From an uncultured Chryseolinea sp. (GTDB lineage: Bacteria > Bacteroidota > Bacteroidia > Cytophagales > Cyclobacteriaceae), in contig CAMLER010000116.1 in NCBI GenBank assembly GCA_946478915.1, positions 1 through 10,488 of the forward strand: DNA of 10,488 nucleotides. The letters run 5' to 3'. The position numbers and the translations under genes are program-made. A model generated the notes under the pieces. That model searched no databases. It was given only the letters and a program-made list of their open reading frames with translations, and was not told the origin of the DNA. Position 1 is the first letter of the stretch; each line of letters starts with the position of its first letter. Below are positions 419-4,135 of this stretch, piece by piece.

Positions 419-1552
419 ATGAAATCTATTAAAGGATTTTTTAAGATTACAGGTGCAGTCGTGTTGGCACTGGTAGCAGTCATTACTATTGCGGGCTTGC
501 TGTTTATGAACCTGAGCCCACAGTTCGGTGGCTCTCCTTCCAGCGATAAATTACTTTCATATTCACGGTCCAAGCAATATCAAGAGGGTATGTTCGTGAA
601 TACGATCCCCACCGCAATGGATATGGGTTTCAGCGCCACAGTAAAAATAGCATACAAGATCTTCTTTAATCGAGCCAAAATGTTGGAGCCGTCCCACCGT
701 CTTCCCGTTGAGACGATAGATCCGATCACACTGGCTGTCCAAGCCAAAGAACTAACACGGATCACATGGTTAGGACATTCTGCATGTTTGCTTGAAATGA
801 ACGGAAAGAGAATACTTTTCGACCCAATGATGGGCCCTTCTCCATCACCTCATCCTTTATTAGGTCCAAAACGATTCAGCTCGCTGCCTATAACCATTGA
901 AGAGTTACCCCATATCGATGCCGTTGTTATTTCGCACGATCACTATGATCATCTTGATTACGAATCGATCTTAAAGCTTAAAAATAAAACAGCCCATTTT
1001 TTTGCTCCGCTCGGCGTAGGGGCGCACCTTGAAGCATGGGGCATTGCACCTACCCGTATCACTGAACTCGACTGGTGGGAAGAATCAACGCTCGATGGGT
1101 TTACATTCGTGTGCACTCCGGCGCGTCATTTCTCGGGGCGAGGACTATTCGACCGGTTTGCTACGCTTTGGGCTTCCTGGGTAGTGAAGACAGAAAGCAC
1201 AAGCATATATTTTAGCGGCGATGGCGGGTATGGTCCACACTTCCGTGAGATTGGTCAGCGCCATGGTCCTTTCGAATTTGTTATGCTGGAATGCGGACAG
1301 TACAATGAACTTTGGCAAGATATACACATGATGCCGGAAGAAACCGTGCAGGCCGCGATAGACTTGAAAGGAAAAACAGTGATGCCAATTCATTGGGGAT
1401 CATTTGCCTTGGCAATGCACCCATGGATGGACCCGATCAATCGGGTTACTGCAGCTGCCGACAACCGTAATGTGCCGATCACAACGCCACTTATCGGCGA
1501 ACCCATCGTGCTTAATAGCGGTCAGCTGCCTGCTACGAAATGGTGGAAGTAA
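419..1552 (+). CDS. Membrane-anchored MBL-fold metallo-hydrolase (NAPE-PLD/RomA-like)
   Basis: A 377-residue protein with a hydrophobic N-terminal segment at about residues 10-30, acting as signal anchor or uncleaved signal, followed by a metallo-beta-lactamase domain from about 113. Visible signatures are TWLGHSACLLE (116-126), FDPMMGP (134-140), the metal motif SHDHYDHLD with H173, H175, D177 and H178, a third-ligand H237 in ARHFSGRG, bridging D268 in FSGDGGYG, and H325 in PIHWGSF. Order and spacing match the zinc ligands of the NAPE-hydrolysing phospholipase D branch, whose characterised members cleave N-acyl-phosphatidylethanolamine; many bacterial relatives are annotated only as Zn-dependent hydrolase or RomA-like. 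All metal ligands are present, so it is probably active; the substrate is unproven but a phospholipid at the membrane is plausible. ATG at 419 follows GGAG at 402-405 with a long 13-nt spacer. It converges with the DinB-like gene, 44 nt away. Confidence 0.88.
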   Translation: MKSIKGFFKITGAVVLALVAVITIAGLLFMNLSPQFGGSPSSDKLLSYSRSKQYQEGMFVNTIPTAMDMGFSATVKIAYKIFFNRAKMLEPSHRLPVETIDPITLAVQAKELTRITWLGHSACLLEMNGKRILFDPMMGPSPSPHPLLGPKRFSSLPITIEELPHIDAVVISHDHYDHLDYESILKLKNKTAHFFAPLGVGAHLEAWGIAPTRITELDWWEESTLDGFTFVCTPARHFSGRGLFDRFATLWASWVVKTESTSIYFSGDGGYGPHFREIGQRHGPFEFVMLECGQYNELWQDIHMMPEETVQAAIDLKGKTVMPIHWGSFALAMHPWMDPINRVTAAADNRNVPITTPLIGEPIVLNSGQLPATKWWK

Positions 1553-1596
1553 GGCGCAACCAACCTATAGCACCGGACGGCAGCCATTCCCATCGG

Positions 1597-2184
1597 CTAT
1601 ACAAAACTGTTTTCTTTAAACAAGTTCATAAAACTGTTCTCGTTCTTTTCCATTTGCCTGAGATGTCGTTGTGCGTGCAGTGCTTGAAAATACAGATACT
1701 GATATACGTCTAGCTTACCAAGGTTGTTTACACTCATCGTTGTCTGATGAAGGATACCCTCACCGTTGGGTAAGTAGTCAAGCGTTATCAGGCATTTATT
1801 CAATTGATTTCTGATTTCACGCCTTATTTCGTAAAGTCCAATCTTTCCAGTAGGCTGATGGTGATCCGGTCGCTGCCACGGAAATGCATCAGGATCTGCG
1901 ACTTCCAACATTGCCTTGCTCGCCAGCGAATAATTTTCCGGAAACTCTGCAGGCAACGAACCATTTTGACTCTTGTGCAAAGCCTTTGCCCTGCCATTAT
2001 CGATGATAACCAGCAAGTAATGGTTGGTAAGCATAATATGTTCAAGCACCTCATTGATGTTCCACGCGCCTGGAAACGGGTGATGGCTACGCAACGGATG
2101 CTCTCTGTCGAACCATTCATCCACAACAGCAAATGTGCGGATGAGTTCGCGCTTAAGGGTCTTGAGTGTTTGTTCGAGAGGCAT
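1597..2184 (-). CDS. DinB/YfiT-like four-helix-bundle protein
   Basis: A 195-residue protein, close to the usual 150-190 of the DinB-like superfamily. The pattern is typical: an N-terminal helix, W41-NINEVLEHI with putative metal ligand H49, a variable middle, then HAQRHLRQM with H170 and H174 (HxxxH). In the superfamily three histidines bind a divalent metal at one end of the bundle; members include putative thiol-dependent transferases and DNA-damage-induced proteins of unknown activity, so no reaction is assigned. It is soluble and cytoplasmic, with no signal peptide. ATG at 2184-2182 has no Shine-Dalgarno. The gene starts only 22 nt beyond the U-tract of a strong terminator on the same strand, with no convincing promoter between, which suggests it may be reached by read-through. 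The C-terminus carries a short echo (NENSF then KENSF) from a small DNA duplication. Confidence 0.8.
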   Translation of the reverse strand: MPLEQTLKTLKRELIRTFAVVDEWFDREHPLRSHHPFPGAWNINEVLEHIMLTNHYLLVIIDNGRAKALHKSQNGSLPAEFPENYSLASKAMLEVADPDAFPWQRPDHHQPTGKIGLYEIRREIRNQLNKCLITLDYLPNGEGILHQTTMSVNNLGKLDVYQYLYFQALHAQRHLRQMEKNENSFMNLFKENSFV

Positions 2185-2206
2185 AAGTGTACAATATATG
2201 GTTAAT

Positions 2207-2233
2207 AAAAAAGCCCGGGTTTTTGCCCGGGCT
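2207..2233 (-). terminator. Strong intrinsic terminator just upstream of the DinB-like gene
   Basis: On the minus strand the arms AGCCCGGG and CCCGGGCT form a perfect 8-bp GC-rich stem around a 6-nt CAAAAA loop, followed at once by a run of Ts ending near 2207. On the plus strand the bases after the stem are TCTTCAT, a poor U-tract, so the orientation is minus. It closes the small transcription unit starting near 2359 and sits 22 nt before the DinB-like start codon. Confidence 0.85.
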
Positions 2234-2257
2234 CTTCATATTGTCAGTAAGTTCAAT

Positions 2258-2356
2258 TCATCTTACAAACATCGTAGTTTCCCGGGCACATGATATCCAC
2301 TTCACGTTCTGGCGAAGGCGGATCATGTTAGCGATATGAATTGTGGATGTTTTCAT
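2258..2356 (-). CDS. Possible 32-residue small protein or leader peptide
   Basis: On the minus strand ATG at 2356-2354 opens 32 codons ending in TGA at 2260-2258. The peptide starts MKTSTIHIANMIRLRQ, continues with KWISCARE (residues 19-26) and ends MFVR. It is basic, has one cysteine and one tryptophan, and lacks a membrane segment. It fits neatly between the promoter and the terminator, but its ATG would be only a few bases from the predicted transcript start, implying leaderless or nearly leaderless translation. An ORF this short can arise by chance and it overlaps a strong hairpin, so coding is uncertain. I do not recognise a family. Confidence 0.35.
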   Translation of the reverse strand: MKTSTIHIANMIRLRQNVKWISCARETTMFVR

Positions 2357-2363
2357 CTTGAGA

Positions 2364-2393
2364 CAAAGGTAAAAAGTTTTCTATAAAGTCAAA
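2364..2393 (-). promoter_or_regulatory. Near-consensus Bacteroidota promoter
   Basis: On the minus strand TTTG (2393-2390) is followed by an 18-nt spacer and TACCTTTG (2371-2364). This matches the Bacteroidota primary sigma factor consensus, a -33 TTTG/TTG and a -7 TAnnTTTG, including spacing. Transcription should begin near 2360-2357 and run left into the small structured unit. It is the best promoter in the window. Confidence 0.7.
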
Positions 2394-2422
2394 GCAACGT
2401 GGACAAAAAAGTGACAGATGAA

Positions 2423-2626
2423 GTGTTGACGTGTTTACGTGTTGAAGTGTTGAGGTGTGGAAGTGTTGATGTTGTGCACGGAAAATAGATTGTGCAAACT
2501 TGCTGAATTTTCTGCAGTCAATTAAACCCAGCCGCCTAAACACCTGAACACCTAAACACTTAACACCCAGACACACACGGAGACACGAAACACCAACACA
2601 TGAACACGTCAACACGTCAACACGTC
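2423..2626. repeat. Opposed tracts of 8-bp tandem repeats (imperfect long inverted repeat)
   Basis: The left tract, 2423-2470, holds six consecutive octamers of the form GTGTTGAN: GTGTTGAC, GTGTTTAC, GTGTTGAA, GTGTTGAG, GTGTGGAA and GTGTTGAT. The right tract, about 2536-2626, is the complementary type, degenerate at first and ending in three perfect copies of AACACGTC (2603-2610, 2611-2618, 2619-2626). The two face each other across about 65 bp of ordinary sequence and can pair with runs of 9-10 matches, making a long imperfect hairpin. The last three octamers overlap the 3' end of the REC-PAS kinase gene and supply its stop codon. No ORF or target-site duplication suggests a transposon. It may act as a transcript end or simply be an expanding microsatellite. 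Confidence 0.75.
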
Positions 2627-4135
2627 AAGTGTGCGCGTCAGCGGAAAATAAACTTTGAACTCCGAACCCTCGTCGATTTTGCTTACAACTTCTACACGGC
2701 CTCCAAGAGCCTCTGTTTGCGCCTTCACCAAATACAGTCCAACACCTTTTCCTGGAATCGATTCATTCTGAAATTTCTTATAGATTGTGAAAAGATCCTT
2801 TTGATTCTTCTCTAAATCTATACCCCTACCGTTGTCCGAAACGGAAAGGCAAACAAAATTCTCGTCGATGCTTGTCTTAACATGAATTTGTGGCAAGGTC
2901 TCGGGTAAAGTGAACTTGATGGCATTAGACAATAAATTTGTCATGATGCTGTCGAGATAGGAAGGGACCGTATTGAATCCCTGACATTGTTGAAAGTCGA
3001 GGGTTATTGTCGCTTTACTTTCCTCGATCGACTTTTGAAGGTCGTTGATAACCTTATGTGCAGCTGTGTCGAAATCAATTCTTTCATATTTTTCCTCGCC
3101 TGGATCACGTGCGGACACAACGACATTGATATCCTGAACAACCTGATCAAGTTCCTCTGTTGACTCGACAATCTTTTCTAAAATAAATATGTGATCCTCA
3201 GGACTATTGTTAAAAATACTCGCCAACCCCAATATTCTCGCAATAGGCGCCCGAAGGTGGTGCGGAATCATATACGCAAATTGCGCTAGCTGCTTGTTCC
3301 GTAATTGAAGATGATTCACCAGCATCTCAGTTTGTACTTCGGAATTCTTACGGTCAGTAATATCCACCAGCATATTAGTACCTCCAACAATTTCACCCGC
3401 TGAATTAAAATTTGGAGTGGGATGGGCGAGCACATACCTTCGCGAGCCGTCTGGTCGCTCGATGATCAATTCTTCTCCAATAATGCTTCGTTGTTCCGCA
3501 ATGGCGCGCGCCATTGGCGATGATACGGGATCCACAACATGGCCATCTTTGTCCAGCATTACCGTTGATCCACACCAAACTCCCCTAGAAGTCCGTGGAT
3601 TTCGTCCCCAGAGGTCTGCTGCGGCCTTATTGTATAATAGAATTCTTCCCTGAACATCACAGGTGTAGATAGCGGCGGGCAAATGTTGCAACAGATCGAA
3701 AAATTGCTTTTCACTTTCGACCATCCTGCTTTTGATCTCTTGCTGGATGGTTTCCATCCGCACCTTTTCCAGTGAATTGAGTATGGCAGCAGGCAGACGT
3801 TGCAGGCGATCTTTCAGAATATAATCGGCCGCCCCCTTTTGCATAGTTTGAAAAGCGAATTCGTCTGAGACAGCGCCAGTAACCAGGATAAAAGGAATTT
3901 TACGCCCCGTATTTTTCAGTATCTCCATCGCTGCAAGCGAATTGAAAGTCGGTAAGCTGTGATCGCTCAGGATGACGTCGGGACGAAACTCGTCAAGGGC
4001 TGCTTCAAATTCACTTTGGTTGTCCACTACCTTAATCTCAAAATCGTAATTTGACTTTCGAAGCTCTCGTTCAATGAGGTATGCGTCGTCGGCTAAATCT
4101 TCGAGGTGTAACACTTTGGTTGGTCGGCTATGCAT
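2609..4135 (-). CDS. Soluble REC-PAS hybrid histidine kinase
   Basis: A 508-residue protein without membrane segments. Residues 6-125 form a receiver: acidic pair E12/D13, phospho-acceptor D58 in SDHSLP, T86 in VTGA and K108 in LKDR. A PAS/PAC domain spans about 141-262, ending DITDRK. A HisKA-like dimerisation helix at 275-345 carries FAYMIPHHLRAP with probable phospho-histidine H292. A HATPase at about 353-497 has N404 (TNLLSNAIKF), D434 in SDNGRGID, and GKGVGL (462-467). The residue after H292 is histidine where most HisKA kinases have Asp/Glu. Receiver-first kinases take a phosphate signal from another kinase and adjust their own activity; the CheY-like protein 29 nt upstream is the obvious partner. 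The last residues, TLDVLTC, are encoded by the AACACGTC repeat tract, which also gives the TGA stop; the natural end may be around FPLTR. Confidence 0.9.
   Translation of the reverse strand: MHSRPTKVLHLEDLADDAYLIERELRKSNYDFEIKVVDNQSEFEAALDEFRPDVILSDHSLPTFNSLAAMEILKNTGRKIPFILVTGAVSDEFAFQTMQKGAADYILKDRLQRLPAAILNSLEKVRMETIQQEIKSRMVESEKQFFDLLQHLPAAIYTCDVQGRILLYNKAAADLWGRNPRTSRGVWCGSTVMLDKDGHVVDPVSSPMARAIAEQRSIIGEELIIERPDGSRRYVLAHPTPNFNSAGEIVGGTNMLVDITDRKNSEVQTEMLVNHLQLRNKQLAQFAYMIPHHLRAPIARILGLASIFNNSPEDHIFILEKIVESTEELDQVVQDINVVVSARDPGEEKYERIDFDTAAHKVINDLQKSIEESKATITLDFQQCQGFNTVPSYLDSIMTNLLSNAIKFTLPETLPQIHVKTSIDENFVCLSVSDNGRGIDLEKNQKDLFTIYKKFQNESIPGKGVGLYLVKAQTEALGGRVEVVSKIDEGSEFKVYFPLTRTLDVLTC

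Follow-up and report, generated by a model that had tools for sequence, protein, structure and literature searches.

The DNA that runs on the minus strand from position 2393 to 2207 of the window (the whole stretch analysed, 10,488 nucleotides) is the leader of a DinB-like gene and not an autonomous unit. It probably acts as a transcription attenuator of this gene, responding to the ribosome that translates a 32-codon upstream open reading frame (uORF). To judge from sequence comparison, the conserved feature is a set of RNA complementarities, not the peptide. The type of mechanism is ordinary; the genes behind it are what is new.

Organization of the leader and of the gene behind it

The promoter, the 32-codon ORF near the transcript start, the central hairpin and the strong terminator named in the preliminary description are all read on the minus strand (Table 1). 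The promoter is of the Bacteroidota type. The ATG of the uORF lies 7 nt past the -7 box; 23 nt separate the uORF stop from the terminator, and another 22 nt separate the terminator from the ATG of the DinB-like gene at 2184. The terminator itself has the sequence AGCCCGGGC-AAAAA-CCCGGGCT (2233-2212), with a T run at 2212-2207. Two features had been overlooked in the preliminary description, namely the GCCCGGG stretch complementary to the first terminator arm (2287-2281), and the possible pairing of uORF codons 2-4 with 2273-2267. Degenerate repeats of 8-nt period, resembling GTGTTGAC, are located directly upstream of the leader (2411-2474), and their inverted complement is found within 2531-2632; similar AAACACTT arrays occur upstream of the leader at locus L001.

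Table 1. Features of the leader and its neighbouring genes in the window
Feature	Position	Strand	Remarks
Response-regulator/PAS histidine kinase gene	4135-2609	minus	leader sits between this gene and the DinB-like gene
Promoter	2364..2393	minus	TTTG 2393-2390, spacer of 18 nt, TACCTTTG 2371-2364; read from the sequence
uORF, 32 codons plus stop	2258..2356	minus	ATG at 2356, TGA 2260-2258; peptide MKTSTIHIANMIRLRQNVKWISCARETTMFVR
Strand 1, AAACATC, uORF codons 2-4	2346..2352	minus	able to pair with 2273-2267 (P1, OFF state)
His codon 7 (CAT)	2336..2338	minus	candidate control codon, lead only
Central hairpin, flanked by strands 1 and 2	2289..2327	minus	predicted by RNA folding
Antiterminator strand GCCCGGG, within the uORF	2281..2287	minus	complementary to first arm of terminator
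GATGTTT, P1 partner of strand 1	2267..2273	minus	from pairing tests
AATATG, example of the ATA[CT] box directly ahead of the terminator	2237..2242	minus	from sequence
Intrinsic terminator	2207..2233	minus	arm 1 2233-2225, loop, arm 2 2219-2212, T run to 2207
DinB-like gene, 195-aa DinB_2/YfiT-fold protein	1597..2184	minus	PF12867, E 2.7e-6

In a generic motif scan of positions 1500-3500, which had Bacteroidota promoters outside its coverage, this hairpin was the sole terminator-like match, printed on the plus strand (shuffle mean 1.8); given that shuffle mean and that coverage, the scan alone reveals nothing above chance. It is the conservation in 14/14 complete DinB leaders described below, unlike the scan, that places the element above chance. 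The window contains no Rfam match at the gathering score, a permissive Rfam search returned sub-threshold matches only, mostly covering the terminator, and the uORF peptide has no Pfam match.

The DinB-like protein has 132 homologues, and its relatives place the window close to Chryseolinea and Ohtaekwangia. Its structural model (pLDDT 85.5) gave YfiT-like proteins and mycothiol S-transferase as top PDB matches, none of them at E<=0.001. No relative of the protein was found in viral contigs, and no DNA similar to the window stretch in phage records; a phage or virus link was rejected on these grounds.

Conservation of the leader at DinB loci

Leaders were collected by homology of the DinB protein, and not by the motif, from 245 genomes of the family. 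This yielded 17 DinB matches in 16 genomes, with the full leader at 13 of the 17 loci; L029 and L031 lack a leader, the leader is partial at L032, a locus identical to L009, where the promoter box is missing, and a contig end cuts L033. With the window counted, there are 14 complete DinB leaders (window, L001-L008, L015, L034-L037), several of which are present twice under other locus numbers; L004 comes from a cultivable relative, Ohtaekwangia koreensis DSM 25262. Every one of the 14 has a TACnTTT[GA] -7 box, an ATG 4-7 nt past this box, a uORF of 27-33 codons, and a terminator between the uORF and the gene. Distances are 22-31 nt from stop to terminator and 19-48 nt from terminator to gene in the 13 leaders measured, a set outside which L006 falls, its terminator having been missed by the first pattern and found in a later search. 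As background, an ATG was found 2-7 nt downstream of 23 of 203 TACnTTT[GA] sites in 400 kb of a relative. L034-L037 precede distant DinB homologues (about 33% identity) and have little leader sequence in common with the window. Scanned de novo, a 400-kb part of genome G003 yielded 36 terminators and no leader. An ATA[CT] box is located <=14 nt ahead of the terminator in 10/11 repair-type groups vs 12/36 background terminators.

In relatives with other genes upstream, the leader is still found ahead of DinB-like genes, for which reason the assignment of the terminator to the upstream kinase gene was rejected. The preliminary description had spoken of a self-contained mini transcription unit; with the leader kept at 13/17 DinB loci, the terminated RNA would instead be the OFF product of the attenuator. 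Its alternative suggestion of a cis-regulatory leader agrees both with this persistence and with the conserved alternative folds (see below). The stretch has a promoter and a terminator of its own, as expected of a trans-acting small RNA, and in the OFF state an RNA of that kind, some 150 nt long, would be set free; however, the groups diverge in sequence and yet retain the place ahead of DinB or repair genes, and we consider a small RNA quite improbable.

The same architecture before aromatic amino-acid genes

A pattern comprising promoter, ATG and terminator arm was searched for in 245 genomes and matched 38 times in 33 of them, as compared to 7 matches with the reversed pattern. Thirty matches had loci attached, and 26 of these possess both uORF and terminator while four (L100, L102, L103, L111) do not; the remaining 8/38 matches, which have no locus attached, are outside the 26 verified leaders. 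Half of the verified leaders (13/26) precede aromatic amino-acid genes: ten stand before DAHP synthase/chorismate mutase and three before an aromatic amino acid hydroxylase, of which one apiece was identified by Pfam and the others by sequence likeness. The uORFs of these 13 leaders are rich in Phe/Tyr, as exemplified by MLIAAFAFFSFYYFYFR and MNFTQNTYYYYYQ, and the Phe/Tyr leaders are a natural positive control for the architecture. The other 13 consist of seven DinB leaders, three leaders before AAA_33-Thg1, two before a 132-aa protein, and one (L094) before a 170-aa protein without Pfam family, the N-terminus of which is weakly like DinB. At L197 (G135), a 170-aa protein stands behind a leader of this type; it matches no family and resembles the DinB-like protein only weakly, at the N-terminus.

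Alternative folds of the leader RNA

The RNA of 2362-2204 folds with a predicted free energy of -49.8 kcal/mol (z = -5.23), and 0 of 200 shuffles were equally stable. Pairing of the early with the late uORF (P1, OFF) vs pairing of the late uORF with the first terminator arm (antiterminator) is the logic of a leader-peptide attenuator. In the predicted folds of truncated RNAs, in which the second terminator arm is absent, the antiterminator is present in 14/14 DinB leaders; with the second arm present, the terminator is predicted in 13/14, the exception being L007, which is predicted to be antiterminated even with the full terminator. Among the 14 leaders of another folding series, no antiterminator was predicted in the shortened L101, L146 and L107 RNAs, and the shortened L145 RNA formed it alongside an upstream helix.

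With Fisher's method applied to 11 sequence-distinct groups, each represented by one leader, the antiterminator exceeded shuffles with p=1.6e-6 and P1 (strand 1:2) with p=3e-4, values that would be too small if the 11 groups are of common ancestry. When P1 was first tested on 15 leaders, with the partner region set wider, only L045 was significant (p=0.032); as the partner region was narrowed to the antiterminator strand following that mostly non-significant test, the P1 value over 11 groups is partly post hoc. For the window alone, the antiterminator reached p=0.010 and P1 p=0.38, i.e. the latter is not above shuffles, and the minimum-energy fold uses another long helix. The antiterminator signal is absent from L107 (p=0.87). 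The best P1 and antiterminator duplexes have nucleotides in common in 25/25 repair-type leaders examined, their number ranging from 2 (window) to 10 (L118).

Compensatory changes, which the preliminary description had named as a mark of RNA function, occur in the OFF structure of the eight DinB-A leaders: it is 93.4% paired with four pairs altered on both sides, and its covariation of 0.153 compares with 0.107 for shuffled alignments (0/500 as high) and <=0.090 for slid versions. The 5-pair core of P1 is 100% paired in these eight leaders and has one compensatory change. Pairing of the DinB-A antiterminator helix amounts to 98%, with one-sided changes only. The central hairpin is retained in DinB-A leaders with compensatory changes, and 2/7 aligned pairs are broken in the window and L001. 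Between groups, the arms co-vary, e.g. L118/L122; in L118, AUGGGGUU stands against CAGCUCCAU and GGGCCCCGUU.

The alignment of the 14 DinB leaders contains no conserved core besides the promoter, the terminator and short boxes, and hence no conserved aptamer. An attenuator under the control of a ligand or an RNA-binding protein, with the ORF being incidental, would be compatible with the lack of peptide conservation, with strand pairings that fit any switch, and with uORFs of 25 codons in RtcB-gene leaders and 10 codons in L125. However, the close placement of the ATG behind the -7 box (4-7 nt in 14/14 DinB leaders vs 23/203 background sites), the architecture shared by the Phe/Tyr leaders, and the lack of an Rfam match and of any aptamer-like sequence common to the aligned DinB leader groups make such control improbable.

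The uORF peptide and the candidate control codon

Comparison of the uORF of the window with that of L001 revealed 4/5/7 differences at codon positions 1/2/3, with 8 of 12 changed codons being non-synonymous. Ten in-frame pairs showed no third-position excess and mostly non-synonymous changes. The L002 uORF is frame-shifted and carries CCCGGG in another frame, with the RNA motif retained. The negative codon-position test and the frame shift led us to reject a conserved small protein, one of the options raised in the preliminary description; as to the conservation in relatives considered there, the fold was found and the peptide was not conserved. A functional microprotein gene would account for the open frame in 14/14 complete DinB leaders, but given the lack of third-position bias, the mostly non-synonymous changes and the frame shift of L002, we regard it as very improbable.

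Classical attenuators are ON when the ribosome stalls over strand 1. The uORFs of repair-type leaders contain no run of one amino acid and thus no obvious control codon. A His codon is found at codon 6-7 in 6 of the 11 groups, and later additions (L125, L009) raise this to 8 of 14 groups in all; L125 and L009 (with His) as well as the RtcB leaders and L145/L146 (without; the latter pair belongs to the 11) were judged after the pattern had been noticed. His is absent from codon 6-7 in L034/L037, L007, L145/L146, L089/L090, L094 and three RtcB leaders; it was therefore rejected as a universal control codon. Its overall frequency of 5.5% vs 3.0% expected is a modest excess (nominal p 0.006, 20 residues tested). 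Since strand 1 ends in a recurrent CCATAT-like motif with which the His codon overlaps, the pattern is possibly an RNA effect, and His codon 6-7 is treated as a lead only.

RNA-repair genes behind related leaders

Among the genes behind leaders of the non-amino-acid type are an AAA_33 kinase with a weak match to polynucleotide kinase, Thg1 (PF04446), a 2OG-Fe oxygenase, PARG_cat_microb, KptA/Tpt1 (PF01885) and RlaP (PF10127), and RtcB (PF01139) is encoded directly upstream of several such leaders or genes. Thg1 represents the tRNA-His guanylyltransferase family. Of the 11 Thg1 loci that passed the cut-off, 7 have a leader, mostly followed by the AAA_33 gene before Thg1; at the Thg1 locus L125, the uORF is 10 codons long and an open AAA_33 frame is missing from the listing. 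In the class-level search for Thg1 (6/395 genomes), none of the 6 loci had the leader. KptA was rejected as a general target, as only 2 of the 23 loci examined have a leader, which in both cases is the DinB leader. RtcB is preceded by a leader in L247, L253 and L254, i.e. at 3/30 RtcB loci fetched, with uORFs of 25 codons; several genomes (G002, G003, G005 and others) contain two or more RtcB genes each.

The 132-aa protein, which has no Pfam family, resembles Tpt1/KptA ADP-ribosyltransferases according to its structural model (pLDDT 95.5; Tpt1 structures as best, albeit weak, match with E 6.8e-3), and we refer to it as an uncharacterised mini-ART. Its 12 loci, eleven of which are L148-L158, have a leader in nine cases, located directly ahead of the gene in four and heading an operon that contains the mini-ART in five. 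Three viral contigs (L202-L204) also encode relatives of the mini-ART. In G159, the attenuator-led mini-ART gene is followed by an elongation factor G paralogue (L195:2086-4158, by Pfam), and likewise in G130 (L156:2329-3387, by sequence likeness).

DinB genes adjoin RtcB, KptA or mini-ART genes at 7/17 loci (G139, G166, G184, G159, G130, G076 and G179, the last two by position only), and the leader is present at five of these seven. No repair gene adjoins the DinB-like gene of the window, so that the link to repair is there by family only. Genomes with the DinB gene coincide more often than expected with those encoding Thg1 (7/11, p 3e-7), mini-ART (9/12, p 3e-10) and KptA (10/23, p 4e-8), p-values which ignore kinship. 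One report discusses RNA ligases jointly with KptA, Macro domains, RlaP and Thg1 as parts of RNA repair (PMC7824862).

Proposed mechanism and signal

In the proposed mechanism, strand 1 in the early uORF would pair with strand 2 in the late uORF, while strands 3 and 4 form the terminator; alternatively, strand 2 would pair with strand 3, the first terminator arm. If the uORF is translated normally or is untranslated, 1:2 and 3:4 would form, and transcription would stop about 150 nt after its start. A ribosome stalled early in the uORF, at an estimated position of about codons 5-12, would cover strand 1 and leave strand 2 free to capture strand 3, so that the terminator would not form and RNA polymerase would read into the DinB-like gene. 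The position of the ribosome is likely to be the input.

Because like leaders stand ahead of RNA-repair genes, the most likely signal would be translation slowed by damaged or missing tRNA; tRNA damage is here a reasoned hypothesis drawn from gene content, which we put forward tentatively. A Cytophagales lineage may possess an RNA-repair regulon under uORF attenuators, with the ribosome itself as the sensor of broken or missing tRNA and the DinB-like protein as a new RNA-repair-associated factor, a proposal that we hold with equal reserve. The regulon would comprise RtcB ligase, PNK-like kinase, Thg1 polymerase, RlaP, the Tpt1-like mini ADP-ribosyltransferase, KptA (in a DinB operon) and the DinB-like protein. 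The tRNA concerned is possibly tRNA-His, as suggested by the His codon that ends strand 1 in many leaders and by the Thg1 family. The same attenuator might respond to general translation inhibition, such as by ribosome-targeting antibiotics, with the DinB-like protein being a detoxifying thiol transferase. Mycothiol and bacillithiol S-transferases are indeed among the PDB relatives of the DinB/YfiT fold (weak matches), and an E. coli report counts in favour of an antibiotic signal (PMC12606134); nevertheless, the companion genes identified code for RNA-end repair enzymes, and an antibiotic signal appears rather unlikely.

Comparison with known systems

Attenuators of the trp/phe/his type operate by the 1:2 / 2:3 / 3:4 segment logic. 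The leader described here has in common with them a promoter-proximal short ORF, the predicted 2:3 and 3:4 pairings, possibly also the 1:2 pairing, and an intrinsic terminator ahead of the gene, but differs in lacking a single-amino-acid run and in preceding DinB-like and RNA-repair genes instead of biosynthesis genes. For Flavobacterium psychrophilum, one study mentions "strong clues" that amino-acid operons have such leaders (PMC9723704). In E. coli, the toiL uORF senses translation stress via RNA refolding (PMC12121999); toiL acts through the ribosome-binding site and Rho, whereas an intrinsic terminator and other genes are involved here. The RNA-repair genes of the rtcBA operon are turned on by damaged tRNA (PMC7790460). 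Control of this type involves a sigma-54 promoter and RtcR, an activator protein whose CARF domain binds tRNA fragments; in the mechanism proposed here, by contrast, the sensor would be the translating ribosome. No account of such attenuators was found among the matches listed from open-licence PubMed Central, a collection outside which most subscription papers lie.

If the proposed mechanism is true, tRNA repair would be triggered by the direct consequence of the damage itself, a stalled ribosome, without a dedicated regulator protein. Such a circuit would be short and testable, and would offer an alternative to RtcR. An orphan branch of the DinB superfamily and the orphan mini-ART would be assigned to a pathway, and the leader would provide a natural reporter of tRNA damage in Bacteroidota.
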